DNA of 50,377 nucleotides, from NCBI GenBank assembly GCA_028712895.1, contig JAQTPL010000011.1, positions 1-50,377 on the forward strand, given 5' to 3'. The translations under genes were made by a program, and so were the position numbers. Shown piece after piece: positions 299 to 39,182 of the stretch. The notes beneath the pieces are model-generated. The model worked only from the letters and a program-made list of their open reading frames with translations. It did not search any database and was not told the DNA's origin. Positions within the stretch are counted from its first letter, which is position 1; each line of letters begins with the position of its first letter. The DNA is from a bacterium (GTDB lineage Bacteria; CAYTYR01; UBA6262).

Positions 299-1741
299 AT
301 GAAGCCTCTTGGCTGGGACAACAACGCAGGGTACAGGCAAAAAAAGTTAGGTGAAATATTACTTGATGCATCAGTGATCGATGAAAGGCAATTGAAAACA
401 GCCTTGACCAAACAACAGCGGTCAAGCAAAAAATTAGGAGAGATTTTAGTCAATCTCGGGTACACTAACGAAGAATTAGTTTTAAATGTATTAGGTAAGC
501 AACTTGATTCTCCTTATATCCGGATAGATGAGACAGAACGGATCGACAATACCATTATTCACAGGATACCGGGAAACCTGGCTGAGCGCAATTTGATCTT
601 ACCGGTGAAGGTAGAAGATGATACGCTCTGGGTAGCAATGAGCGACCCGGCCAACCAGTTCCTGAAAAAGGTGCTGGCTCTTTTGACCGGGTATAATATT
701 AAGTCCTATATTGCCAGTCCCAAGGAATTAAAGCAGACCATTGCCAGCTATTATTCCCGGGAAGGCAGGTTTGAAAAGAATGCCGAAAGTGTCCCGCAGT
801 GTAGTTACTTCCTGCCGTTGAAACAATTAGGCTTTACCCCGCGGCAGTTGCAGGTTTTTGGCAAATACCTGGAAATGCAAAAGGGTTGCGTGCTGATCAT
901 TGGTTCTGAGGATAGCGGCAAAAAGACCACTGTATATGGCAGTCTCCGGCAGCTGAATTTTCCAGATAATGACATAGTTTCCATAGAAAGAAAGATGGAC
1001 TATAAGCTGGATTGCGTGAACCAGCTGGAAATTTCAGGTACCAGTGACCAGGACATGAAAAAGATGATTGATAGTGTCAACCAGTTCAATCCTAATATCC
1101 TGGCGATAGAGAATATCCAGGGTGTAGAAAGCTGGAATGGCCTTGGCCGGATGGCGGAAAAGGGGAACCTGGTCATTGGGACGATCAATACAGACCAGAA
1201 TATCGTTGATTTTCTTGCCACTTTCCAGGATAAAAGGACCACTCACTACTCAGTTATTGAAAACCTGACCCTGGTGGCTGAGCAAAAGTTGGTCAGGGCG
1301 GTCTGCCCTTACTGCCAGACACCTTATAATATTACCGGAAAAACAGCCAGGAAGATGGGCTTAAAGGTAAAAGGGGCTATGATTAATATATATAAAGGTA
1401 AAGGATGCAATGTCTGTGACCATACCGGTTATTATGGTTATACTGCTTGTTATGAACTACTGCCAATCAATAGTTCGATAAAGGACCTGATGATGCAAAA
1501 TGCCAGCAAGGCAAAAATAAAAAAAGCGATACAAAAGGAAATGGATTATAGTTTTAATGATGTCCTGCAGGAAAAACTTTTGAAAGGGCAGGTTTCAGCT
1601 GAAGATTATCTCCAGGTAATGGGAAAGAATATCAATCAATTCAAGGAACTTAAGACGGTGATGGTCATGGATACCTTTTGGTCCTTGTTTGAAAAATCAG
1701 GCTCTATTAATGCCTATTTGGAGTACCGCAGGAAGAACTAA
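299..1741 (+). CDS. GspE/PilB-family protein with MshEN c-di-GMP-binding domain and degenerate ATPase
   Basis: This is a 480-residue relative of type II secretion/type IV pilus assembly ATPases. Residues 16-39 and 45-68 are two 24-residue KLGEIL...Q motifs joined by a 5-residue spacer, the layout known for the c-di-GMP-binding MshEN domain; motif I has Ser where Gly is usual. In the ATPase half, the Walker A is GSEDSGKKTT (202-211) with Lys replacing the usual Thr/Ser after GK. The Walker B region (NILAIENIQG, 266-275) lacks the GEIRD sequence, and the His box (usually TLHTN) reads TINTD. The zinc site survives: C336, C339, C370 and C373. I infer a c-di-GMP sensor or pseudo-ATPase. The ATG at 299 is chosen because GAGGAG (284-289) precedes it; an in-frame ATG at 206 lies inside the promoter's -10 region. 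A c-di-GMP riboswitch follows directly downstream. Confidence 0.88.
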   Translation: MKPLGWDNNAGYRQKKLGEILLDASVIDERQLKTALTKQQRSSKKLGEILVNLGYTNEELVLNVLGKQLDSPYIRIDETERIDNTIIHRIPGNLAERNLILPVKVEDDTLWVAMSDPANQFLKKVLALLTGYNIKSYIASPKELKQTIASYYSREGRFEKNAESVPQCSYFLPLKQLGFTPRQLQVFGKYLEMQKGCVLIIGSEDSGKKTTVYGSLRQLNFPDNDIVSIERKMDYKLDCVNQLEISGTSDQDMKKMIDSVNQFNPNILAIENIQGVESWNGLGRMAEKGNLVIGTINTDQNIVDFLATFQDKRTTHYSVIENLTLVAEQKLVRAVCPYCQTPYNITGKTARKMGLKVKGAMINIYKGKGCNVCDHTGYYGYTACYELLPINSSIKDLMMQNASKAKIKKAIQKEMDYSFNDVLQEKLLKGQVSAEDYLQVMGKNINQFKELKTVMVMDTFWSLFEKSGSINAYLEYRRKN

Positions 1742-1775
1742 TATTTTATCTGCTAGATATTTTTATAAAAAGAGC

Positions 1776-1803
1776 TTGACAAAACACTTTTTTGTGCTAT
1801 TGT
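1776..1803 (+). promoter_or_regulatory. promoter of the c-di-GMP riboswitch transcript
   Basis: TTGACA (1776-1781), a 16-base spacer and TATTGT (1798-1803) preceded by TGTGC. The predicted start near 1810 lies just upstream of the riboswitch aptamer. Confidence 0.7.
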
Positions 1804-1834
1804 ATGAGTAAGCATAAAACTCAATTGACAAATT

Positions 1835-1926
1835 AACCGAAAAGGCAAACTCGTCGCAAGACGGGGGCGCAAAGCCACGGGACCACTGGAATACCTATGT
1901 TCAAAAAGAGGTTAGCCGGGCTGCCG
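1835..1926 (+). promoter_or_regulatory. c-di-GMP-I riboswitch (GEMM-I)
   Basis: The conserved elements occur in order. GGCAAAC (1844-1850) begins the core. A CGTC/GACG stem capped by a GCAA tetraloop (1850s) is P2. CGCAAAGCC (1868-1876) and then GTTAGCCGGGCTGCC (1911-1925) complete it, with the final TGCC closing P1 against GGCA. This is the GEMM-I class, which binds cyclic di-GMP. The aptamer's 3' strand runs into the left arm of a terminator, so ligand binding can be coupled to read-through. AACTC (1818-1822) could also pair with GAGTT (1926-1930) as an antiterminator. Whether ligand turns the gene on or off cannot be settled by eye. The controlled gene starts at 2045. The 303-base spacer 1742-2044 is fully taken up by promoter, riboswitch, terminator and a start-codon hairpin. 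Confidence 0.93.
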
Positions 1927-1960
1927 AGTTAAAGCAACATGTAACTCGGATTTTTGTTTT
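1924..1960 (+). terminator. intrinsic terminator, expression platform of the riboswitch
   Basis: CCGAGTTA (1924-1931) pairs with TAACTCGG (1942-1949), followed by ATTTTTGTTTT. The left arm shares CC with the aptamer's closing TGCC (1922-1925). A second small hairpin, ACCGG/CCGGT, follows at 1961-1975. Confidence 0.85.
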
Positions 1961-2007
1961 ACCGGAGCACCCGGTAAATAAAAATAAAACAGCCACGAAA
2001 GTCACGG

Positions 2008-2046
2008 ATGTGCTTTTGGGGCAAAAAAAATAAGGAGGAAGCACAT
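2008..2046 (+). promoter_or_regulatory. possible start-codon hairpin upstream of the riboswitch-controlled gene
   Basis: ATGTGC (2008-2013) is complementary to GCACAT (2041-2046), which contains the first two bases of the start codon. The Shine-Dalgarno AAGGAGG (2032-2038) lies in the loop. GCAC at 1967-1970 could compete for the same GTGC. This would allow control of translation below the terminator; it is a base-pairing inference only. Confidence 0.4.
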
Positions 2047-3217
2047 GAAGAAATTGTTAGTGTTAGTAGTAACAGTATTAGCAATAGTCGGCTTAGCTTC
2101 TATGGCTTATGCTGATACGACTATCTTCGGAGATAGTCTTGCTTATGCCTTTGCCAATTGGCAGGGATCAAACCAGGATAATTATGGTACGACAACGACT
2201 CCCAATCTGCATTCGATCACTGAATCAGTAGTTACCTCGCCATGGTCCGGTGTTGGTGATCCTATAGGCAATACAGTGCTCAAGATTGATTTTGACATGA
2301 ATACTGTTGCGGGTAATGCCAATGAATCCTGGAGCGGTCATTTAATGACTGCCCCTGGTGGAGTGAAATTATCCGGCGTTAGCAGGTATACTTTTAAAAT
2401 TAGAGGGGACGCCGCAACCAGTGGAACTCCTCAAATTGATAAGCTAGTTTGCTCTGATGCCAATAGCAATCTGATCAATATTGTCAATCCAGGATATGCT
2501 GTTCCTGATTCTTCGGCCTGGGTAACCTTTACCACAGATGCTAACTTTTTTGCCGGGAAGAACATGAGCGGAGTACCTATTCCGTTTGGTGTTTATATGA
2601 CTTCCAGCGCTAATGCCAGTGTAACCAATGGCACTCCAGGCTTACCGAATGGCAACAGGCACGTTATCTTCTACCTTGATGATGTCAAATTTTTGGGTGG
2701 CAGTTCCGGCTCGGTGTTAGTGACTATGATGACCGGCGTGATCGGCGTGCAGATCGAGGGTAATATTAATTTTGGCCAGGTCACAGCTGCGACAGCCCTT
2801 AATTCAGCAGATTTGATAGGGGATAAGTTCTTTACCGTTACTAATGTTGGAAACGCGACTATTAACTATGACGTAAACTTGTTTAATCCAGGCGGCTGGA
2901 CTGCTGAAGATCCCGGCCATAGCTTAAGCACTCCGAATCTAGTGACTGAGCAAGATCGATATGCGCTTTATGGGTTATTCACACAGCAATTCACCATCGC
3001 TCCTGGGCTCGCGGATTATCAGGCTGATGATGCGATAACCACCGCTCCGCAAATGTCTGGAAGCAGCAAATACAGTTTCCCTGATGGTACTTCCCAGGGT
3101 GTAGGTATAAACGCAGGCGATATTAGGCAGCTCTATATTGGCTTATATACTCCTCTGCTGTCTTCAGTAAGTACGACTCAGCAGATCAGTATCGCCGTAT
3201 CAGCAGTTACTCCGTAA
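2045..3217 (+). CDS. secreted two-domain protein under c-di-GMP riboswitch control
   Basis: A 390-residue protein with a clear signal peptide (MKKLLVLVVTVLAIVGLASMAYA, residues 1-23). Residues about 25-219 look like a beta-sandwich binding module of the galactose-binding type, closing with FYLDDVKFLGG. Residues about 230-390 form a second beta domain (IGVQIEGNINFG, TNVGN, NPGGW, YALYGLF) that recurs at the C-terminus of the 975-residue protein at 7891. The shared pattern also covers GVG, a Leu/Thr-rich TPL segment and a final Q-I-x-I-x-V strand. No enzyme motif is visible. It is the first gene behind the c-di-GMP-I riboswitch, so its output should follow cellular c-di-GMP. I infer a surface or extracellular structural or adhesive protein. 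It has no known family that I can name. Confidence 0.85.
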   Translation: MKKLLVLVVTVLAIVGLASMAYADTTIFGDSLAYAFANWQGSNQDNYGTTTTPNLHSITESVVTSPWSGVGDPIGNTVLKIDFDMNTVAGNANESWSGHLMTAPGGVKLSGVSRYTFKIRGDAATSGTPQIDKLVCSDANSNLINIVNPGYAVPDSSAWVTFTTDANFFAGKNMSGVPIPFGVYMTSSANASVTNGTPGLPNGNRHVIFYLDDVKFLGGSSGSVLVTMMTGVIGVQIEGNINFGQVTAATALNSADLIGDKFFTVTNVGNATINYDVNLFNPGGWTAEDPGHSLSTPNLVTEQDRYALYGLFTQQFTIAPGLADYQADDAITTAPQMSGSSKYSFPDGTSQGVGINAGDIRQLYIGLYTPLLSSVSTTQQISIAVSAVTP

Positions 3218-3228
3218 GTATTATATTA

Positions 3229-3260
3229 CAGGTGTGCGGGTGGTTTCACCCGCACACCTG
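3229..3260 (+). promoter_or_regulatory. perfect 14-bp hairpin between secreted genes
   Basis: CAGGTGTGCGGGTG (3229-3242) and CACCCGCACACCTG (3247-3260) pair perfectly around GTTT. The bases after it (GTTTGGTTC) are not a proper U tract. It may be a leaky terminator or a 3'-end stabiliser that keeps the first gene's mRNA more abundant than the next gene's. Confidence 0.75.
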
Positions 3261-3288
3261 GTTTGGTTCAAAACAAAAGGGGTAAAGG

Positions 3289-4896
3289 ATGAAATTTATG
3301 AATACATTAATGAAGCAGCATACAAAAACTTTTAATGAAGTCTTAGCGACAGCTATTATTTCTTTGTTGATGTTTTTCTTTGTCTCTGCCGGATATGCGG
3401 CTTCTATGAGCGTAACCCCGCCAAAATTAACTTATACTGACATCAGGATCGGTAATACGTATACGCTTGAAGATATGAATCCTAATAATATCAAAATTAA
3501 ATTCACCTACATTGGCAATGATAATGAACCCATGGAAGTTGAAGCTACACAGACTGGCATAACTGTACCGGCTGACTATGAAGTATTACCAGATACTAGC
3601 ACAGTTACTATCAGCCCGAATAATTTTTTTATCAATAGTGGTGACAGCCAGGAAGTTTCAGTAAGTGTAAGTATTCCGCAAAATATAGACTACCTGGGGA
3701 AAAAGTTTGCTTTTGGCATCTGGGGTTATAGCAAAACCAGCTCTGGAAACGCCGCGGCCATTGCCACAGTTTACCTTGAAATAAATCCTTTATATGTCAA
3801 CTATGGTATAGCCGGATATGAAGAGTTAACGACTATCGGTTTGATCGGCAATAAAGCGGTCATTGCCGCCAATATTGTCACTGCGAAGGGGACTCCATCT
3901 CCGGGCGTAAAACTTTATTACAGGAAAACCGAAGCCGATACTTGGGCTGCCCAAGATCCTGTAAACAGTAATCCTACTGCAAAAAGTGATGGCACCAAAG
4001 ATTTTACTTTTGAAGTTGCCGCCAGCTCTATTACCACTGCTGGCTTCCAATATATTATAGAAACAAATGCAGGTGCGTCTTATGCCTACTCGCCTGTTCA
4101 GGAGAAACCTGCTGATTTCCAGGCTGCCAGTACCAAATATCATAGTGTAACTGTCTCCAGGCTGACTACCGGGCAAATTGCCACTACGGGCAGCACCCTG
4201 AGCGTGCCTGATGGCAATCCTCATGACGGCGCTGTTAAGATCGTCGCTCCGCGCGGCGCAGTGGCTACCAACCAAACGATAACTTTAGAGCAAATTGATG
4301 AAGTTAATGACGCTTCTTGCCCTAAGGCACCTGGTTTTGCCCTGGCTGAAAAACCGGCTATGATCTTTAAACTTCAGCCGGAAAACACAAGGTTTTTGAA
4401 AAATATCGATCTTACTTTACTCTATTTTGATATTGACGATAAGGATGGCCTAGTAGATAATTTATTTGACCAGGACGGGGCCCCGATAGAAGAAGCCAAG
4501 CTCAAGATGTTCTGGTGGGATGGATTTAAGTGGAGATTGGTCAACGGGGTTCAAACCCAAGACGTGGAAAAGAACACTATTACCGTCAAAACCAACCATT
4601 TTTCATACTATGCCCTAATCCCGGTCAATTCCCTAAGTCCTGAAGATTACCGGCCAGCCAAGAAGATAATTACTCCTAATGGCGATGGTATAAATGATGA
4701 AGCGGATTTCAGCGGCTTAGCTGAAGAGATCAAGATCTTCGATATTACCGGAAGAAAGATCCGGTCAGTATCTGCCGGCACAGGCGAATGGGATGGTAAA
4801 GATAATGACGGCAGTGTAGTTGAGAGCGGAGTCTATATTTACCAGTTTAAGGTCGAAGGTACTTTAGTTAGCGGCGTTATCGCCGTGGCGAAGTAA
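3289..4896 (+). CDS. secreted multidomain protein with chaperone-like N-terminus and FlgD-like C-terminal domain
   Basis: A 535-residue exported protein with a long n-region and a hydrophobic core ending near SAGYAAS (about residue 38). The N-terminal beta domain (YTDIRIGNTYTLED, then ADYEVLPD and YLGKKFAFGIWGYS) resembles the repeated domain of the proteins at 5911 and 6891. The middle (about 280-440) is beta-rich and ZU5-like (GSTLSVPDG, IVAPRGAV, NHFSYYALIPV). The last 80 residues, from ITPNGDGINDEADF through WDGKDNDG and SGVYIYQF, are a FlgD/T9SS sorting-like Ig domain. ATG 3289 follows AAGGGG at good spacing. The stop is followed directly by the PorV-like gene's ribosome site, so the two are coupled. 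I infer a cell-surface protein exported across the outer membrane. Confidence 0.82.
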   Translation: MKFMNTLMKQHTKTFNEVLATAIISLLMFFFVSAGYAASMSVTPPKLTYTDIRIGNTYTLEDMNPNNIKIKFTYIGNDNEPMEVEATQTGITVPADYEVLPDTSTVTISPNNFFINSGDSQEVSVSVSIPQNIDYLGKKFAFGIWGYSKTSSGNAAAIATVYLEINPLYVNYGIAGYEELTTIGLIGNKAVIAANIVTAKGTPSPGVKLYYRKTEADTWAAQDPVNSNPTAKSDGTKDFTFEVAASSITTAGFQYIIETNAGASYAYSPVQEKPADFQAASTKYHSVTVSRLTTGQIATTGSTLSVPDGNPHDGAVKIVAPRGAVATNQTITLEQIDEVNDASCPKAPGFALAEKPAMIFKLQPENTRFLKNIDLTLLYFDIDDKDGLVDNLFDQDGAPIEEAKLKMFWWDGFKWRLVNGVQTQDVEKNTITVKTNHFSYYALIPVNSLSPEDYRPAKKIITPNGDGINDEADFSGLAEEIKIFDITGRKIRSVSAGTGEWDGKDNDGSVVESGVYIYQFKVEGTLVSGVIAVAK

Positions 4897-4909
4897 GGAG
4901 GGGATGACG

Positions 4910-5842
4910 ATGAAGAGGAATTTGATACTTACTTTAACCGTAATAGCGATAGTTTTTCATATACAAGTTGCGCAAGCCGCATTTAAAGACTGTGGTTGGG
5001 GGACCAGACCTGCTGGCATGGGGGGAGCATTTGTTGGGGTAGCGAACGATAGTAATGCTCCCCTATGGAACCCGGCAGGTATCGCCCAGATGAAAAATGC
5101 CGAAACCAGTTTCATGTATTCCACTTATTATAATGGTTTGGATTTGAAGGCAGGTAGTGACAGTATCAGCCTGGGATTTAATTATCTCTCCTTTGTCTAT
5201 CCCAAAAGCACGATTGGTGCTTTCGGAGTAAGCTGGGCCAATTTTACGGCCACGAATCTCTATAAAGAAGACACGTATACCTTTACCTATGCAAAAAAGA
5301 TAAATGATTGGCTGCCTGAACTGCCACCGATCATTTATGTAGGTTTGAACCTGAAATCAATGGGGCATACTTATACGCTTGATGATTATGCTCAGAATGA
5401 CCCGGTTTTTGTACAGGGAGGAACCTCCAAGAGCGCTTTTACCGTGGATCTTGGGGCTTTGGTAAAACCTTGGAACAGGCTGGCCATAGGCGTCGCGGCT
5501 AAGAACCTGACTCAACCGGATGTAGGATTGAAAGATGAAGATATAGTCCCGATGGAGTTAAAAGTGGGTGCAGCGTACCGTTATACCCTCATTACTCCGG
5601 CTGTTGATCTGACTATGCGTGATGGTGTCACCACCATGCACATGGGAGTAGAAAGCTACTTGATGAATAAAGCGCTGGGATTAAGAGCTGGCTGGAATTC
5701 CACTGAACTGACCTTTGGCTTCTCTTTTAACGGTATCCGTTCCAAAAACTTTGGTCTTAACCTTGATTATTCCTTTATTATGCCGCTGGAGATAGAAGAT
5801 TCATCCGGTAGCCACAGGATATCAATGGGTGTATGGTTCTAA
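4910..5842 (+). CDS. PorV/UPF0164-like outer-membrane beta-barrel protein
   Basis: A 310-residue protein with signal peptide (MKRNLILTLTVIAIVFHIQVAQA). The mature start, GTRPAGMGGAFVGVANDSNAPLWNPAGIA (written in part: GMGGAFVGVAND and WNPAGIA), is the hallmark of the PorV/PorQ and UPF0164 group in the FadL-like barrel superfamily. Alternating beta strands continue to a C-terminal aromatic residue (MGVWF). In type IX secretion, PorV shuttles sorting-domain cargo at the outer membrane. The preceding gene ends in a FlgD/T9SS-like domain, which fits a cargo-shuttle pair, but no other T9SS core gene is in view. ATG 4910 is chosen over ATG 4904 because AAGGAGG (4895-4901) is then 8 bases away rather than 2. 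Confidence 0.85.
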   Translation: MKRNLILTLTVIAIVFHIQVAQAAFKDCGWGTRPAGMGGAFVGVANDSNAPLWNPAGIAQMKNAETSFMYSTYYNGLDLKAGSDSISLGFNYLSFVYPKSTIGAFGVSWANFTATNLYKEDTYTFTYAKKINDWLPELPPIIYVGLNLKSMGHTYTLDDYAQNDPVFVQGGTSKSAFTVDLGALVKPWNRLAIGVAAKNLTQPDVGLKDEDIVPMELKVGAAYRYTLITPAVDLTMRDGVTTMHMGVESYLMNKALGLRAGWNSTELTFGFSFNGIRSKNFGLNLDYSFIMPLEIEDSSGSHRISMGVWF

Positions 5843-5867
5843 AAGTAGTTACCAATATTAAATACTA

Positions 5868-5900
5868 AAGGAGACCTGAATCAAGGTCTCCTTATTTTTT
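5868..5900 (+). terminator. intrinsic terminator after the PorV-like gene
   Basis: AAGGAGACC (5868-5876) pairs with GGTCTCCTT (5885-5893) and is followed by ATTTTTT. The next gene's Shine-Dalgarno AGGAGGG (5901-5907) begins immediately after, so any read-through feeds straight into that gene. Confidence 0.85.
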
Positions 5901-5910
5901 AGGAGGGAAT

Positions 5911-6816
5911 ATGCCTAAGATTAAAACGCTGCTATTAACAGGATATATTGTCCTGTCTGCCGGCCTAGTGCAGGCTACAGGCTTGACGGCGAATTTTGGT
6001 GATGTTTTGTTCGAGAACCTGAAGATAGGACAGTCGTTTAGCGCTCGCGATAAAGCTAATCTGCCATATGTGGTGACTAATTCCGGGACTAAAGATATTG
6101 ACATCGTGATCGAGGTCATACCGCCTTTGCCTAAGAATCTAAAACCAGGATATGAACCGATCCCGGATCCGCGCTGGATTACCTTGGGCAAGAGATCCGG
6201 GACCTTAAAACCAAAAGGGCAAGTCTTAACTGATTTTGTCTTTAATATTCCTAATGATGAGAAGTTAATGGGCAGGAAATTCCAGGCAGTGCTTTATCCT
6301 TACACCTATGATGGGATCCTGAAGATAGGGGTTAACAGCAATGTCTATTTCACTATTGATAAAGAAAAAGGGCCTTATCCGATATACTTGAATCCAAAAG
6401 ATTTCAAAGATAAGCAATCCTTTGAGGTGGATCCTCAGGATATATATGTGCAGGATGTTCCTTTAGGGGAAAAAGTCGATCTGGAAAAAAAGTACGGGTT
6501 GGTTTTGAAAATAACCAACTCTACGGATCTGCAGTGTAAGTATTATATGAATACCATAAAAGTAAAAGACGAGCTTTCCGCTGCCACGCTCAAAGAAGGA
6601 TATTTGGACACACCTGACCCGAATATATTATCCTTTGACTCTATAGAATTAGTGGTGAATCCTAAGGAAACAAAGAAAATGAAGCTCTATCTCCAATTCC
6701 CTAAAGATAAACAATATGCGGGCAAGAAATACATGTTCCTGGTACCAGTGGTCCTGGGATACCAGGAAGTGCCAGTGATCCGTTATGTTTATCTTTATGT
6801 CACTACGAAGAAATAA
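5911..6816 (+). CDS. secreted protein with two chaperone-like beta domains
   Basis: A 301-residue protein with signal peptide ending near GLVQA (about residue 22). The first domain (25-150) carries FGDVLFENLKIG, an Asn-x-Gly turn, GYEPIPDPRW, and MGRKFQAVLYPYTY. The second domain (about 155-301) repeats the scheme in weaker form: TDLQCKYYM, YLDTPDPN, PKETKKMKL, and AGKKYMFLVP. The same domain is found once in the proteins at 3289 and 6891. The spacing of a Pro-rich loop, a hydrophobic strand and a G-(R/K)-K-F/Y strand recalls Ig-like pilus chaperones and related periplasmic domains, but I cannot name the family. No catalytic motif is seen. It lies between two secreted-protein groups and probably helps assemble or anchor them. 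Confidence 0.8.
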   Translation: MPKIKTLLLTGYIVLSAGLVQATGLTANFGDVLFENLKIGQSFSARDKANLPYVVTNSGTKDIDIVIEVIPPLPKNLKPGYEPIPDPRWITLGKRSGTLKPKGQVLTDFVFNIPNDEKLMGRKFQAVLYPYTYDGILKIGVNSNVYFTIDKEKGPYPIYLNPKDFKDKQSFEVDPQDIYVQDVPLGEKVDLEKKYGLVLKITNSTDLQCKYYMNTIKVKDELSAATLKEGYLDTPDPNILSFDSIELVVNPKETKKMKLYLQFPKDKQYAGKKYMFLVPVVLGYQEVPVIRYVYLYVTTKK

Positions 6817-6818
6817 TG

Positions 6819-6847
6819 TTGCGTATATGTTAATATGGTGGTATATA
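6819..6847 (+). promoter_or_regulatory. weak possible promoter
   Basis: TTGCGT (6819-6824), 17 bases and TATATA (6842-6847) upstream of the next gene. The -35 is poor, and the two genes could equally be co-transcribed. Confidence 0.3.
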
Positions 6848-6890
6848 TATAGGCAAGACTACTTGTTGAGCCATGGTAAAGAGAGGGGAA

Positions 6891-7760
6891 ATGAAAAAAA
6901 AGATACTAAAGACATTTGGATTGTTTTTGTTGGCCCTCAGTTATGCCGGTGGCGCCTGGTCAGCGGCTTTAACGGTTAATTATGCGGATATTGTCCTGGA
7001 AAACCTGCAGCCGGGAGTCCCGGCCAGCCTGTTACAGAGGGCCGGGAGCGCACTTGGCGTCAATAATACTGGTTCGCTGGGCGATAATATCTATTTTGAA
7101 ATATTGATCCCTAACAAGAGCCAGCTCGCAGCTGGATACGAACCTATTCCTAATGTCAGCTGGCTTAAACCTGAACGCATCAGTTTTTGGGTTAAGGCTA
7201 ACGAGACTGAAAATCTTGACTTGATCGTGTATGCGCCCTATGATCCAAAATTATTTGGCAGGAAATATCAGGCTATCCTGATGGTCTATACCCTGGCCGG
7301 TGCAGGAGTGATGCAGGACAGCATAAAAACCAGAGTATTTCTTAATTTTAGCAGTGAGCCATATGGTCGTGAAGCCCTGAATAAAAAAGTCCGTGATGAC
7401 CAGACCAATGACAAGATTGTCATGATCTACCCTAAAATGACCTCAATTAGCAAAGTGAGCTTGAAGCGGAAGCTGGATTTTTCCAGGATGGTTGTTACCA
7501 ATAATAGTAACGAAAAAATAACTCTTGCCTTATACGCCGTAGGCTTGGCCAATGCTCCGGCTTTAGCCAGGTTAATAAGTTTTAAAAATCCGGTCATTGA
7601 ACTAAATAACAAAGAATCAAAAAGCATAGATCTATCCATAGATTTACCCTTATTAAAACTTAAAAAAGACCGGCCTATCTTGATCTTAATCGGCGCTAAG
7701 GATACGGCAAATCCTCCTAAAATAGGGCAATTTGGCCTCTTAATAGTGCAGTTCAACTAA
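6891..7760 (+). CDS. secreted paralogue of the preceding chaperone-like protein
   Basis: A 289-residue exported protein with signal peptide MKKKILKTFGLFLLALSYAGGAWSA (written as MKKKILKTFG then a hydrophobic core). The N-terminal domain aligns with the protein at 5911: YADIVLENLQPG for FGDVLFENLKIG, GYEPIPNVSW for GYEPIPDPRW, and FGRKYQAIL for MGRKFQAVL. The C-terminal half is a more diverged beta domain with VVTNNSNEKITLALY. ATG 6891 is preferred because GAGGGG (6883-6888) lies just before it and it gives a normal signal peptide; an ATG at 6873 is in frame but would add MVKRGE. The tandem paralogues suggest gene duplication and related roles in the same surface system. Confidence 0.8.
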   Translation: MKKKILKTFGLFLLALSYAGGAWSAALTVNYADIVLENLQPGVPASLLQRAGSALGVNNTGSLGDNIYFEILIPNKSQLAAGYEPIPNVSWLKPERISFWVKANETENLDLIVYAPYDPKLFGRKYQAILMVYTLAGAGVMQDSIKTRVFLNFSSEPYGREALNKKVRDDQTNDKIVMIYPKMTSISKVSLKRKLDFSRMVVTNNSNEKITLALYAVGLANAPALARLISFKNPVIELNNKESKSIDLSIDLPLLKLKKDRPILILIGAKDTANPPKIGQFGLLIVQFN

Positions 7761-7773
7761 GAATAAATAGCGG

Positions 7774-7801
7774 TTGACAAGAGCGGTTTTTATGCTATAT
7801 T
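7774..7801 (+). promoter_or_regulatory. promoter of the 975-residue secreted protein
   Basis: TTGACA (7774-7779), 16 bases, then TATATT (7796-7801) preceded by TATGC. It resembles the promoter at 1776-1803 in spacing and in the TG-C before the -10. Confidence 0.7.
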
Positions 7802-7811
7802 TATAATATCC

Positions 7812-7875
7812 AGAAGCTACGGACTTCGGTTACATGGCTATACACATATGGCTTCTGTAGCCTATTTTATTTTAA
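7812..7875 (+). promoter_or_regulatory. structured leader RNA of unknown type
   Basis: AGAAGC (7812-7817) can pair with GCTTCT (7851-7856). GCTAC (7816-7820) can pair with GTAGC (7857-7861). GGCTA (7836-7840) can pair with TAGCC (7858-7862), which is followed by a U-rich TATTTTATTTT. These pairings exclude one another, the behaviour expected of a regulated leader. It lacks the GEMM core and I recognise no known class. Confidence 0.4.
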
Positions 7876-7890
7876 TGGAGCAACAGCATA

Positions 7891-10818
7891 ATGTCGTTTG
7901 CAAAAAACATGAAAATTGTCCTGGCCTTCGCCATTATATCCTTGCTTGTATACCCAGCATCGAGGATTTGGGCAGAGGGCACAATTTATACCTTTTCCGA
8001 GAGTTTTGACACCACAAACCATCGGGGTGCCGGAACTACTGCTGACTGGAACAGCGCGGACGGAGTGCTACAGTTGCCTGCCAACTCTGATCCCGCCAGT
8101 AATACCAAGCAGATCAATGACAGTGTCACTGTAATGGGTAACTATCTTTATTATGCCTGGATCGATTTCCGCGGCGGTATCGGTAGTAATAGCGGTCACA
8201 TCTACCTGCAGAGATATGATAAGTCCGGGGCTAATCCTTTAGCCGCGGATGTACTGGTAGATCATGGTTCTGCTAGCTCTTATATAAGTGATGGCTTTTT
8301 TGGCACGTATGTCAAAATGATCAATGACGGTACCTATGTCTATGTTTATTGGACTAAAAGCAATACCTTATACTTACAGAAATTTAATGCCAATGCTGAA
8401 CGTCAATGGAGCGGGGATCTGCAGGTAAATGCAACTGTGGCGGTCAATAGTTATAACTATGGGTATTACACCGGTCTGGTCAACAGTGATGGCTCTTTAT
8501 CGTTCTTCTGGAATAGCGGTACTGGCGTATATCTGCAGAAAGTGAATCCTGATGGTCCTGGAGTTCTGAATGGAAGTGCTGTACAGCTATTAGGCTCAAT
8601 TACTAATTCGGTTTATGTAAATCTAACTACTGCCAGCCGTGATAGTGATGATAATTATTTCCTGATCTATTCCAGCTACAATAGTACAAATACAAACAAG
8701 GAACTTTTCTTAGAGAAATATGATTCCAGCGGAACAGAGGTTTGGTTGGATCGTGTGCTCATTGCTTCGGTAAAAACTATTTACGGGGCTGATATAGCTA
8801 CTGATGCTGCAGGTACTAGTTACATCGTCTGGGACCAGATGACTGCTTCTAGTGGCCTGGACGTCTATATTGCCGCAGTCAATACCAACGGAGCTCCTAT
8901 GAGCGGGTGGACCGCGAAAAAAGTCTATACTACCACCAGTTATAATAACCATAATCCCAAGGTTCATCTTGATTCAAATAATGCACCTGTAGTAATTTGG
9001 GAAGATGCCCGGACTAGTGGCAAGCTGGATGTATACGCCCAGCGCTATAATAATAGTGGTACGGCACAATGGGCGGCAACTGGGATAAAAGTGAATAGAG
9101 GAGATAATCCTTCGTTTAATGCTGGGTACTATACTGGTTATAATTCAAATTTTGTCATAGATACAGATAACAGTTTGTATGTTACTTGGTATGCTTACCG
9201 TAATGCTGATTATGATACGTATGGGCAAAAAGTCACGGCAGCTGGTGTAAATAATGCCAGTGATTGGACCATTACCCAAACCGAGGCTGGCGGGGGATAT
9301 GCTTTATCAGCAGAAGCTGTGTCTAATGATGTGCTCTATCCGGATAATCCTACCAGTCCGATACTTTCGGCTAAGGTTTACTGTAATTATTATTCCAAGG
9401 GACAAACCATTCAATTATCTTTGTCTAATGACGGGATAACGTGGCAAAGCGCGAGCCTTAATGGTACCAGTCTCTCTTTCAGTAATACTAATGGTAAAAG
9501 TCTCTACTGGAAAGCAGTGATATCTACAACTGATCTTTTTGTCACCCCGGTCATATACGATGTGTTGATTGAGTATACCATGACCGGGGAAGGTATCTCT
9601 TACCATAAGCAATTATATATTTATGATGACTACTGGCATTATCCGGCCAGCGGTTGGATGAACTATAGTGCTATGGTCATGGATTCATATAGTCATGATA
9701 ATCCGGCTACTGGATCCTCCTGTGTGAAGATCACCTATGATCCGGCCAAAGCAGATTGGGCAGGATTCTATGCCCAAGCCAGCGCGCAATGGGGCGGACA
9801 AGGCCTCGATATGAGTAATTATTCGGCTATGCTGATCAGGGCCAGGGCAGGCGATAGTAACGCTAGCGCCATTCAAGTCCAATTTGGCGTTGGCGGCGAT
9901 TCCGGGGATACGTGTAATGTTAAGACTAACTTTATGGTACTAACTAATGAATGGCAGACGTATGCTATTGACCTGACTAATAAGAATTTGACTAACATTA
10001 ACGGATTGCTTTTAGTGGTAATGAGGCCGGCTGTGAACATTGACCCGTCATTTTATATCGATGATATCAAGTTCATCGGGCCAGGCCCGGCGGCTATCAC
10101 CGACTTGAATACTACGCTCGGCAGCACTCCAGGCAGTGTCAACCTTACCTGGACAGCTCCAGCCGGAGATTATATCAATAATGGCTATGTTGTAAGATTT
10201 GCAGACAATTATGATTTTAATAATGCTACTGTCTACGGCCAATCCTGGATCCCAGGCACTCCCGGGACTCCGGAGTCACATGCCGTGGCTGGCTTGATCC
10301 CGGGGCAGGGATATTATTTTGCTGTCCAGACTATGGATGATCATGGGAATCTGTCAGGCCTGTCTAATGTAGTATTTGTTATTGCCAGAACTGCGGGCAT
10401 TGGCATTACCGTAGAAGGGACTATTGATTTAGGTTTAATGATGTCCGGTGAAACTAAAATTGGTACTGAACCGATCATTGTTACCAACATCGGCGGTGAG
10501 CCGGTAACTTTGACTTTAAATTTAGAGGATCCTCCAGGATGGCAAGCCGCACCGACTCCTGGGATGAATCAATATGCATTGCTTGGGGCTTTTGGCAGCA
10601 CCAGCGGCGCGGTTATTTGGAATGTTAATAATCATTTACTGACAGCCCATGGCATTAAATGCACTAATGCTATATATGCGGGAGACCAAAATGGGGTAGG
10701 CGTGGCGGTGAATGCCCAGAGAAAGCTGTGGCTTAGGCTTACCACTCCCTTAGGTATAGATGTAGGGACAGAAAAACAAATTATTACCATTAGTGTGACT
10801 GCCGGGACCGCAAATTAA
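7891..10818 (+). CDS. large modular secreted protein: seven-repeat propeller, binding module, FN3 and shared C-terminal domain
   Basis: A 975-residue exported protein with signal peptide ending near SRIWA (about residue 28). Between residues about 105 and 455 a Y-x-Q-K/R unit recurs seven times: YLQRYDKSG, YLQKFNANA, YLQKVNPDG, FLEKYDSSG, YIAAVNTNG, YAQRYNNSG, YGQKVTAAG. This suggests a seven-bladed beta-propeller. Residues about 570-730 form a galactose-binding-like module closing with FYIDDIKFIG, like that of the riboswitch-controlled protein. Residues about 733-833 are a fibronectin type III domain (LTWTAPAGD, GYYFAVQTMD). Residues 836-975 repeat the C-terminal domain of the protein at 2045. 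Such architecture is typical of surface glycan-binding or adhesive proteins. It has its own promoter and a structured leader, and is followed by a terminator. Confidence 0.82.
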   Translation: MSFAKNMKIVLAFAIISLLVYPASRIWAEGTIYTFSESFDTTNHRGAGTTADWNSADGVLQLPANSDPASNTKQINDSVTVMGNYLYYAWIDFRGGIGSNSGHIYLQRYDKSGANPLAADVLVDHGSASSYISDGFFGTYVKMINDGTYVYVYWTKSNTLYLQKFNANAERQWSGDLQVNATVAVNSYNYGYYTGLVNSDGSLSFFWNSGTGVYLQKVNPDGPGVLNGSAVQLLGSITNSVYVNLTTASRDSDDNYFLIYSSYNSTNTNKELFLEKYDSSGTEVWLDRVLIASVKTIYGADIATDAAGTSYIVWDQMTASSGLDVYIAAVNTNGAPMSGWTAKKVYTTTSYNNHNPKVHLDSNNAPVVIWEDARTSGKLDVYAQRYNNSGTAQWAATGIKVNRGDNPSFNAGYYTGYNSNFVIDTDNSLYVTWYAYRNADYDTYGQKVTAAGVNNASDWTITQTEAGGGYALSAEAVSNDVLYPDNPTSPILSAKVYCNYYSKGQTIQLSLSNDGITWQSASLNGTSLSFSNTNGKSLYWKAVISTTDLFVTPVIYDVLIEYTMTGEGISYHKQLYIYDDYWHYPASGWMNYSAMVMDSYSHDNPATGSSCVKITYDPAKADWAGFYAQASAQWGGQGLDMSNYSAMLIRARAGDSNASAIQVQFGVGGDSGDTCNVKTNFMVLTNEWQTYAIDLTNKNLTNINGLLLVVMRPAVNIDPSFYIDDIKFIGPGPAAITDLNTTLGSTPGSVNLTWTAPAGDYINNGYVVRFADNYDFNNATVYGQSWIPGTPGTPESHAVAGLIPGQGYYFAVQTMDDHGNLSGLSNVVFVIARTAGIGITVEGTIDLGLMMSGETKIGTEPIIVTNIGGEPVTLTLNLEDPPGWQAAPTPGMNQYALLGAFGSTSGAVIWNVNNHLLTAHGIKCTNAIYAGDQNGVGVAVNAQRKLWLRLTTPLGIDVGTEKQIITISVTAGTAN

Positions 10819-37982: not shown

Positions 37983-39182
37983 ATGGCGAAGGCGAAATTT
38001 AATCGGACAAAGCCGCATGTCAACATTGGGACGATCGGGCACGTAGATCACGGCAAGACGACCTTGACCGCGGCGATCACGTCGACGTTGGCGAAGATCG
38101 GCAGAGCACAGGCCAAAGGGGTCTTTGACATTGACAATGCGCCGGAAGAAAAAGCCCGGGGAGTCACCATTAATATAGCGCACGTGGAGTACGAAAGCGA
38201 AAAGCGCCACTACGCGCACGTCGACTGTCCCGGCCACGCCGACTTCATCAAGAACATGATCACGGGAGCCGCCCAGATGGACGGAGCGATCCTGGTAGTA
38301 AGCGCCGCCGACGGCCCGATGCCGCAGACGCGGGAACACATTTTATTAGCGCGGCAAGTAGGCGTGCCGTCGATGGTGGTGTTCCTGAACAAATGCGACA
38401 TGGTAGACGACAAAGAACTGATCGACCTGGTAGAGATGGAAGTCCGGGAACTGCTGTCCAAGTATAACTTTCCCGGAGACAAGATCCCGTTCATCCGCGG
38501 CAGCGCGGTGAAAGCATTAGAGAACGTAGAAAAAGGCAAAGACGATCCCTGGGTCAAACCGATCTATGATCTCGTTGAAGCCTGTGACACGTATATACCG
38601 GAACCCAAGCGTGAGACCGAGAAACCGTTCCTGATGAGCGTAGAAGACGTGTTCACGATCACCGGCCGCGGTACCGTAGCCACTGGTCGTATCGAACGTG
38701 GCAAGATCAAGGTAGGGGATGAAGTAGAGATCGTGGGTATCCAGGAGACGCGCAAGAGCGTGATCACCGGGATAGAAATGTTCCGCAAGCTGTTGGACGA
38801 AGGGCAGGCCGGGGACAATGTCGGCGCATTGCTCAGAGGCATCGACAAGGAACAGATCGAACGCGGGCAAGTCATTGTGAAGCCTGGCTCGATTACCCCG
38901 CACAAGAAGTTCAAAGGGCAAGTATATGTACTGACCAAAGAGGAAGGCGGACGGCACACACCGTTCTTCAAAGGATATCGTCCGCAGTTCTACTTCCGGA
39001 CCACAGACGTGACTGGCTTAGTGACCCTACCGGCTGGAGTGGAGATGGTGATGCCGGGCGACAATATCATGGTGGATGTGGAATTGATCACGCCGATCGC
39101 GATGGAGAAGGAACTGCGTTTTGCTATCCGCGAAGGCGGCCATACGGTTGGCGCTGGTGTCGTTTCAGAGATCGTTGAGTAA
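37983..39182 (+). CDS. tuf: elongation factor Tu
   Basis: A 399-residue GTPase that delivers aminoacyl-tRNA. G1 is GHVDHGKTT (19-27), then [64 protein letters not shown] and the domain II-III end [15 protein letters not shown]. Its codons favour C or G in third position more than its neighbours, as expected for a very highly expressed gene. It is the only tuf in the window. Confidence 0.98.

Follow-up and report, generated by a model that had tools for sequence, protein, structure and literature searches.

A candidate c-di-GMP-responsive surface protein locus with a WxL/WxLIP-like layout in an uncultured Elusimicrobia-type bacterium

Analysis of a 50,377-base stretch of DNA (the window) from an uncultured Elusimicrobia-type bacterium (NCBI phylum Elusimicrobiota) revealed a locus of genes P1 to P7 in which two putative c-di-GMP sensors adjoin a set of exported proteins. 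We give about an even chance, judged from sequence, structural models and analogy, to the proposal that the locus, here in a diderm, encodes a surface protein complex that c-di-GMP induces and that is built like a WxL/WxLIP cluster. Slightly short of an even chance is our estimate for the broader proposal that an unnamed two-part, usher-less surface assembly system, composed of a C-terminal domain (CTD) as subunit or anchor and a tandem PapD-like partner, would exist in several little-studied diderm lineages, being switched on by c-di-GMP through a riboswitch in two of them and coupled to a motor-dead MshEN protein in one. All results are computational.

The window is a whole contig (G000:C10), and the relatives near its metagenome-assembled genome (MAG) were Elusimicrobia bacterium UBA6262, NC_groundwater_1672 and fen_1175. 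The gene order is P1, a c-di-GMP-I aptamer, P2, P3, P4, P5, P6 and P7, followed by rplM-rpsI, and all features of the locus described below are on the + strand. The full order is the same in G001 and is largely kept in G003, where P5 is missing; in G002 pieces of the locus are spread over separate contigs. The left edge of the window falls just 5′ of P1. As G001 has a copy of tuf further upstream of the locus and the window has its own copy at 37983, the contig break left of P1 may have occurred at a repeat. Genes outside the window were read from fetched stretches with a simple ORF script, which may overlook small genes; the contigs of MAGs have limited length, and their labels may in some cases be wrong.

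Gene P1 (299..1741) encodes a protein of 480 aa, which Pfam, NCBIfam and homologues place as MshEN plus T2SSE, the latter a degenerate PilB/GspE-type motor domain. The start at ATG 299 was confirmed, since conservation in four homologues begins there. The MshEN match (about 509-766) had an E value of 2.8e-16 in Pfam, and the c-di-GMP motif (about 344-502) scored 57.8 bits against NF053729, for which the cut-off is 38. Inspection by eye, using the motif definition of PMC5013675, found both Q residues and the 5-residue spacer of the tandem motif kept, with R changed to K twice and G to S once. At the motor motifs P1 reads GSEDSGKK (Walker A), ENIQG (Walker B), ERKMDY (Asp box) and INTD (His box), whereas eight intact paralogues from the same and related genomes read GPTGSGKT/S, GEIRD (GEVRD in one), EDPVEY and L/IHTN, respectively. 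The Ser/Thr of Walker A and the Glu of Walker B are therefore gone from P1, together with both the Asp and the His box. The protein thus departs from the PilB/GspE motor pattern (Walker A GxxxxGK[ST], Walker B Glu, Asp box, His box) at all four points, and it is also without about 135 residues that these paralogues have between the MshEN part and the motor part. The catalytic losses are common to all four homologues, in agreement with the description of P1 as a pseudo-ATPase in an earlier, sequence-only reading of the window. With its c-di-GMP motifs kept and its motor motifs lost, P1 is likely a c-di-GMP binder that cannot be a normal motor.

The second sensor was placed by Rfam covariance models at 1835..1929, extending slightly the span of 1835-1926 first proposed, and exceeds the gathering cut-offs of both RF03167, the best family (70.1 bits, E 1.2e-14, cut-off 59), and RF01051 (65.7 bits, cut-off 35). 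The ligand-contact elements GGCAAA, GC-A-AAGC and the 3′ GCC are present, as are G20, A47 and C92 (Vc2 numbering), which, from the Vc2 structure, we take to be the usual c-di-GMP-I ligand contacts. Sensing of cGAMP, considered because GEMM-Ib aptamers have the same fold, was rejected: A20, presumably the mark of cGAMP-type aptamers, is absent here, and G20 favours c-di-GMP. An RF03167 variant with altered ligand was also considered; the consensus of that family has G at position 47, and as A47 is found here we do not propose a different ligand. The aptamer is thus predicted to sense c-di-GMP, and two putative c-di-GMP sensors, each a profile match, indeed adjoin one another.

The helix P1 of the aptamer is extended by 5 bp (1833-1837/1928-1932), with pairing 5/5 in four genomes. 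It is followed by an intrinsic terminator (1924..1960; arms 1924-1931/1942-1949, U-tract 1951-1960), which our hairpin scanner missed as its loop is longer than 8; across four genomes 6-8 of its 8 positions pair and the U-tract is invariant. Positions 1928-1931 are common to the 3′ strand of aptamer helix P1 and the 5′ arm of the terminator. Because of this overlap ligand binding is predicted to prevent termination, and the riboswitch is predicted to be an ON switch. A possible ribosome-binding-site hairpin (2008..2046; AUGUGCU/AGCACAU) is invariant in four genomes, and since its arms never vary it gives no covariation support. The leader segment at 1992-2022 between the terminator and the ribosome-binding site, GCCACGAAAGTCACGGATGTGCTTTTGGGGC, is nearly invariant in four genomes and has no Rfam match.

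Promoter-like sites precede P1, P2 and P7. The one belonging to P2 (1776..1803; TTGACA-16-TATTGT, with TG before the -10) is largely conserved in four genomes, and the one before P7 (7774..7801; 11/12 matches) is conserved in G001 and G003. P2 is followed by a strong 14-bp hairpin with no good U-tract (3229..3260), found in G001 and absent in G003, and P4 by a terminator-like hairpin with a U-tract (5868..5893), found in G001, G002 and G003, the last with a weaker tract. Given the conserved terminator after P4 and the promoter-like site before P7, the riboswitch transcript probably covers P2-P4 and not the whole locus. P1, P2-P4 and P7 are expected to form separate units, while P5-P6 would depend on an unseen promoter or on read-through; gene P1 precedes the aptamer and is not under its control.

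Downstream of the sensors lie, as first read, only exported proteins: each of P2-P7 begins with a signal-peptide-like segment, and further along none of the six has a hydrophobic stretch strong enough to be transmembrane. P2 (2045..3217, from its ORF and homologues) has 390 aa, and P7 (7891..10818, from Pfam and homologues) is a modular protein of 975 aa with an fn3 domain. Comparison of the two confirmed that they share a CTD, at 2705-3214 in P2 and 10363-10815 in P7; the N-terminal region of P2 is in turn similar to the middle domain of P7. Elsewhere in the genome, at L146 645-2770 (G000:C72), three tandem small exported proteins resembling this middle domain (residues 583-728) were seen near a PorV gene and a CHU_C-tailed protein.

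No Pfam family of any kind matches the CTD. The fold matches of its model (pTM 0.79) all had Z values under 8, where common, unrelated beta sandwiches also score; fibre or tube subunits were prominent among the matches (FimA Z 7.6, CanA 7.3, CsuA/B 6.9, TasA 6.4), and glycosidase and PapD-like domains were also matched. Sequence searches against solved proteins gave at most chance-level matches for both the CTD and the PapD-like family described below, one each (1grw, E 0.02; 2l02, E 0.42), which were discarded. Identity of the CTD with the WxL domain, which is C-terminal, spans 160-190 aa and has two W-x-L motifs and a Pfam WxL match, was likewise rejected for lack of Pfam support: P2 and P7 have no W-x-L motif, and Pfam WxL matched none of 14 CTD members. 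W-x-L-like triplets were noticed, by eye only, in some distant CTDs, such as KWALRV in L174.

Three proteins with a chaperone-like domain had been proposed, and profiles and AlphaFold/VIA comparisons bear them out in P5, P6 and the N-terminus of P3. P5 (5911..6816; 301 aa) is an exported tandem PapD-like protein by its AlphaFold model and by homology, and P6 (6891..7760, with the start set by homology; the mechanical ORF starts at 6873) is its paralogue, 25-28% identical and with the same two tandem domains. The P3 domain (3346-3753) matched the family profile with an E value of 8.7e-15. The model of P5 (mean pLDDT 74.7, pTM 0.46) aligned over both domains with Enterococcus WxLIP (9i1y) at Z 11.9 across 207 residues; the rmsd of 16.6 indicates that the domain orientation differs, and two-domain structural alignment of P5 gave an rmsd above 11. 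Against the chaperones FimC, Caf1M and YadV one domain aligned, at Z 10.5-11.3. The PapD-like fold is common, and eukaryotic PapD-like proteins of the ciliary central apparatus ranked as high for the P5 model as WxLIP and the chaperones. P5 thus appears, from the model and its VIA match to 9i1y, to have the two tandem exported Ig-like domains of WxLIP (DUF916-DUF3324). The WxLIP_PGBD and HBD profiles gave chance-level matches only (best E 0.06, in 3/13 PapD-like proteins), and beyond residue 45 neither P5 nor P6 has a segment hydrophobic enough for a transmembrane helix. Like the CTD, the PapD-like family has no Pfam family.

P3 (3289..4896; 535 aa, from its ORF and Pfam) combines a signal-peptide-like N-terminus with a C-terminal CHU_C, T9SS type-B-like tail (about 4663-4854; E 1.3e-10, 41.7 bits, cut-off 27), as does T9SS type-B cargo, which pairs a signal peptide with a CHU_C/TIGR04131 domain at the C-terminus; TIGR04131 itself scored 31.8 bits with a cut-off of 35. 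Its neighbour P4 (4904..5842) is a divergent PorV/PorP-family outer-membrane barrel by NCBIfam, and the earlier assignment as PorV-like holds with an E value of 2.1e-18 to PorV_fam, though its 67 bits are below the curated cut-off of 90. Many P3/P4-like pairs of a CHU_C protein and a barrel occur in the genome, and G000 has 17 PorV-family matches. The core of the T9SS appears only partly visible in profile searches. The catalytic part of PorU was not found; PorU profile matches cover the tail region of the model only, and thus count cargo tails, not the sortase, so they were rejected as PorU. The search for GldM gave no match, and its control gave none either. An SprA-like T9SS translocon protein outside the Bacteroidota (1718 aa; 110 bits, cut-off 200) was observed at L140 1587-6743 (G000:C35), and also in G001, G002 and G004:C123.

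Among 290 sampled genomes, the PapD-like family was found in 17, the CTD family in 16 (a summary of the same counts gives 17 and 16 in the order CTD, PapD-like) and both in 13, a co-occurrence with a Fisher p of 1e-16, uncorrected for relatedness as our association tests ignore phylogeny. A scan of GTDB contigs with the PapD-like family gave ten loci, including more Elusimicrobia, one Endomicrobiales and one MAG labelled Spirochaetes. All seven loci outside family f1 (L170-L175 and L177, where L170 corresponds to contig L133 of G004) have a CTD gene in their vicinity, which is small in six of them and only large in L172; leave-one-out profiles recognised the small CTD-only proteins beside the PapD-like gene with E values of 1e-8 to 1e-27. 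The WxL-like layout, at least one WxLIP-like protein adjacent to two domain-bearing proteins, is seen in P5/P6 with P2 and P7 and again in L173, L175, L212, L214, L217 and L258, as a resemblance of layout only. The cassette usually also includes PorV-family barrels and proteins with a CHU_C tail; histidine kinase-like and response regulator-like proteins were recognised by eye in L171 and L175. In L214, L218 and L258 the CTD and PapD-like genes stand together with no CHU_C or PorV gene in the stretch read.

Seven genomes from two lineages, which differ in gene order, have a c-di-GMP-I aptamer immediately before a CTD gene. In family f1 (G000-G003) it precedes P2; in lineage f118 (G120, G257 and G384, recorded as related to the window only at the level of "same domain") it has the PapD-like gene on one side and a small CTD gene on the other. 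Scattered genes with no tie to c-di-GMP, which would speak against the earlier reading, are therefore not what we found, as the two families also co-occur in 13/290 genomes. Recurrence of the whole four-part set in variable order held for the CTD, the PapD-like proteins and, in a second lineage, the aptamer, but not for the MshEN pseudo-ATPase, which is tied to the locus in f1 only and was not found in the f118 cassettes. The earlier reading of the locus, whose link between sensors and cargo was drawn from gene order, is supported in part. Most other cassettes, including that of G004 (C174) within the short sequence available, have no aptamer, and the CTD and PapD-like genes stay linked where none is near. 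Since many cassettes lack it, c-di-GMP control would be a plug-in and not a defining part; the conserved object appears to be the cassette, with c-di-GMP control added in at least two lineages.

Aptamers also precede other genes. G004 has ten aptamer matches, one of them sub-threshold. Behind those that could be read lie genes for subtilase and GH113 proteins with CHU_C tails, accompanied by PorV genes, and for a PorV-OmpA fusion, an HD-GYP protein and an MshEN protein (G004:C190) that is cut by the contig end and may be a P1 orthologue, among others. Subtilase and GH113 cargo with T9SS-like tails plus PorV genes follow aptamers in both G000 and G004; a simple binomial estimate over a rough window, which concerns PorV and not the aptamer-CTD link, gave p of about 0.0007 in each. 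Ten GGDEF matches were found in the genome, and in the literature searched we found no link between c-di-GMP riboswitches and Elusimicrobia or PorV. Several sites merit separate mention. Tandem c-di-GMP-I aptamers at L032 17311-17397 and 17522-17613 (G000:C60; also L053, L054 and L057) precede a subtilase with a T9SS-like tail and a PorV gene, and the first of them has C for G at position 20 in four of four genomes, which might change the ligand. The fusion at L066 2371-3945 (G004:C62) joins a PorV-family barrel to an OmpA peptidoglycan-binding domain directly behind an aptamer, and at L063 2940-4598 (G004:C89) an aptamer precedes a PAS-GAF-HD-GYP protein, a possible feedback on c-di-GMP breakdown. 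A c-di-GMP-I-UAU variant aptamer (RF03168, 69.3 bits) lies at a contig end at L064 139-216 (G004:C184). At L262 6510-7364 and L263 8455-9303 (G090, G231), in an apparent polysaccharide locus, large CTD-bearing proteins have as a neighbour a short protein whose N-terminus is MshEN-like; this may be a second tie between c-di-GMP and the CTD family.

The following sequence of events would account for these data. At high c-di-GMP the aptamer would fold, its helix P1 would take up the 5′ arm of the terminator, and P2-P3-P4 would be transcribed. P2, and P7 from its own promoter, would be exported by Sec and would present carbohydrate- or surface-binding N-terminal modules on the beta-structured CTD. 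The CTDs would be held in place or stabilised by the PapD-like domains of P5, P6 and P3, possibly through strand complementation of the kind predicted for WxLIP and WxL, while P3, through its tail, would be taken through or anchored in the outer membrane by the neighbouring barrel P4. In the least certain step, P1 may adjust a type IV pilus or secretion motor in parallel as a motor-dead c-di-GMP binder. The product is probably a surface or adhesion complex turned on by the aptamer. Against this explanation, the terminator after P4 parts P5-P6 from P2-P4.

That terminator, together with the hairpin after P2, the position of P1 upstream of the aptamer and the promoter-like sites before P1, P2 and P7, several of these signals being conserved, would also suit a locus in which the riboswitch controls P2 only, or perhaps P2 with P3-P4, and P1 and P5-P7 are independently regulated neighbours. 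We think this very unlikely, as the order of the whole locus is conserved in G001 and nearly so in G003 and as the CTD and PapD-like genes are linked in other lineages; it concerns, moreover, shared transcription and not shared function. The aptamers that precede other T9SS-like-tailed cargo and PorV genes in G000 and G004, and the 17 PorV-family matches in G000, could instead point to an ordinary c-di-GMP-regulated T9SS-like cargo operon, with P3 and P4 as cargo and shuttle, the CTD a mere sorting or anchoring tail, and no special complex of CTD and PapD-like proteins. The persistence of the latter two where no aptamer is near, and where CHU_C and PorV are absent (L214, L218 and L258), argues against it, as does the lack of any Pfam match for the CTD, and we regard it as quite unlikely.

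An usher-less fibre is unlikely in our judgement. Here the CTD would be a polymerising subunit like FimA, Csu or TasA, the tandem PapD-like proteins would be periplasmic chaperones, and c-di-GMP would turn the fibre on. The prominence of fibre and tube subunits among the CTD fold matches is consistent with this, as are the free-standing CTD-only proteins next to a PapD-like gene and the match of single PapD-like domains to FimC, Caf1M, SfaE and YadV at an rmsd of 2.1-2.6. However, the CTD matches all stay at the Z values of unrelated beta sandwiches, the locus has no usher gene, and in P2 and P7 the CTD ends larger binding proteins, as in WxL proteins, and is not a simple pilin.

The complex with WxL/WxLIP-like architecture, if correct, would be of interest because such surface clusters have so far been described for Firmicutes. 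To find the same layout in diderm candidate lineages, in sequences that look unrelated, would imply that a two-part surface platform is either very deeply homologous or was invented convergently; the two families that build it here have no Pfam entry. The recurrent riboswitch would give the system a definite input signal in not-yet-cultured bacteria, and it points to a c-di-GMP regulon of T9SS-like secreted proteins.

Among known systems, P1 shares the tandem c-di-GMP motif and the T2SSE fold with the MshE/PilB ATPases that carry MshEN (PMC5013675) and differs in its missing Walker A, Walker B, Asp and His boxes and its missing segment. Expression of the adhesin gene gbpA is increased by the class-I riboswitch Vc1 (PMC4744006); here too a class-I aptamer, predicted to be ON, stands before a putative surface-binding protein gene, with the differences that the downstream families are unnamed, that the terminator overlaps aptamer helix P1 and that the cassette is recurrent. 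Chaperone-usher pili are similar in their PapD-like domains and beta-sandwich subunit-like domain, but no usher (FimD/PapC) gene was found among the genes of the locus, and the partner has two full PapD-like domains of about 135 residues each. T9SS type-B cargo uses a cognate, often genetically linked shuttle (PMC12618676). The CHU_C tail of P3 followed by a PorV/PorP-family barrel resembles such pairs of cargo and PorP/SprF-like shuttle (PMC9143113, PMC12618676), as do the many cargo/barrel pairs and the SprA-like protein in the genome; the differences are scores that are all sub-threshold except for CHU_C, the catalytic part of PorU and GldM not being found, and the additional PapD-like domain of P3.

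The closest parallel in layout is the WxL cluster of Firmicutes, consisting of a small WxL protein, a large WxL protein and WxLIP (PMC10599100). In both, clustered genes encode a small protein made of one beta domain, a large modular protein with that domain at its end and, separately, an exported protein made of two Ig/PapD-like domains; among bacterial structures, WxLIP (9i1y, 9i25) matches the P5 model best over its full span. The differences are that the CTDs of P2 and P7 have no WxL motif or Pfam WxL match, that P5 and P6 are without a C-terminal membrane helix, and that the window comes from a diderm lineage, with a T9SS-like tail, a PorV barrel and a c-di-GMP riboswitch. The sequence-only reading knew of no named system with this make-up, which stands at the family level; in make-up, the locus closely parallels WxL/WxLIP clusters and T9SS type-B pairs. 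Judged by motif, membrane helix and Pfam match, the cluster is not a member of the WxL family but resembles it in layout, and a homology too distant for HMMER could still underlie the resemblance.
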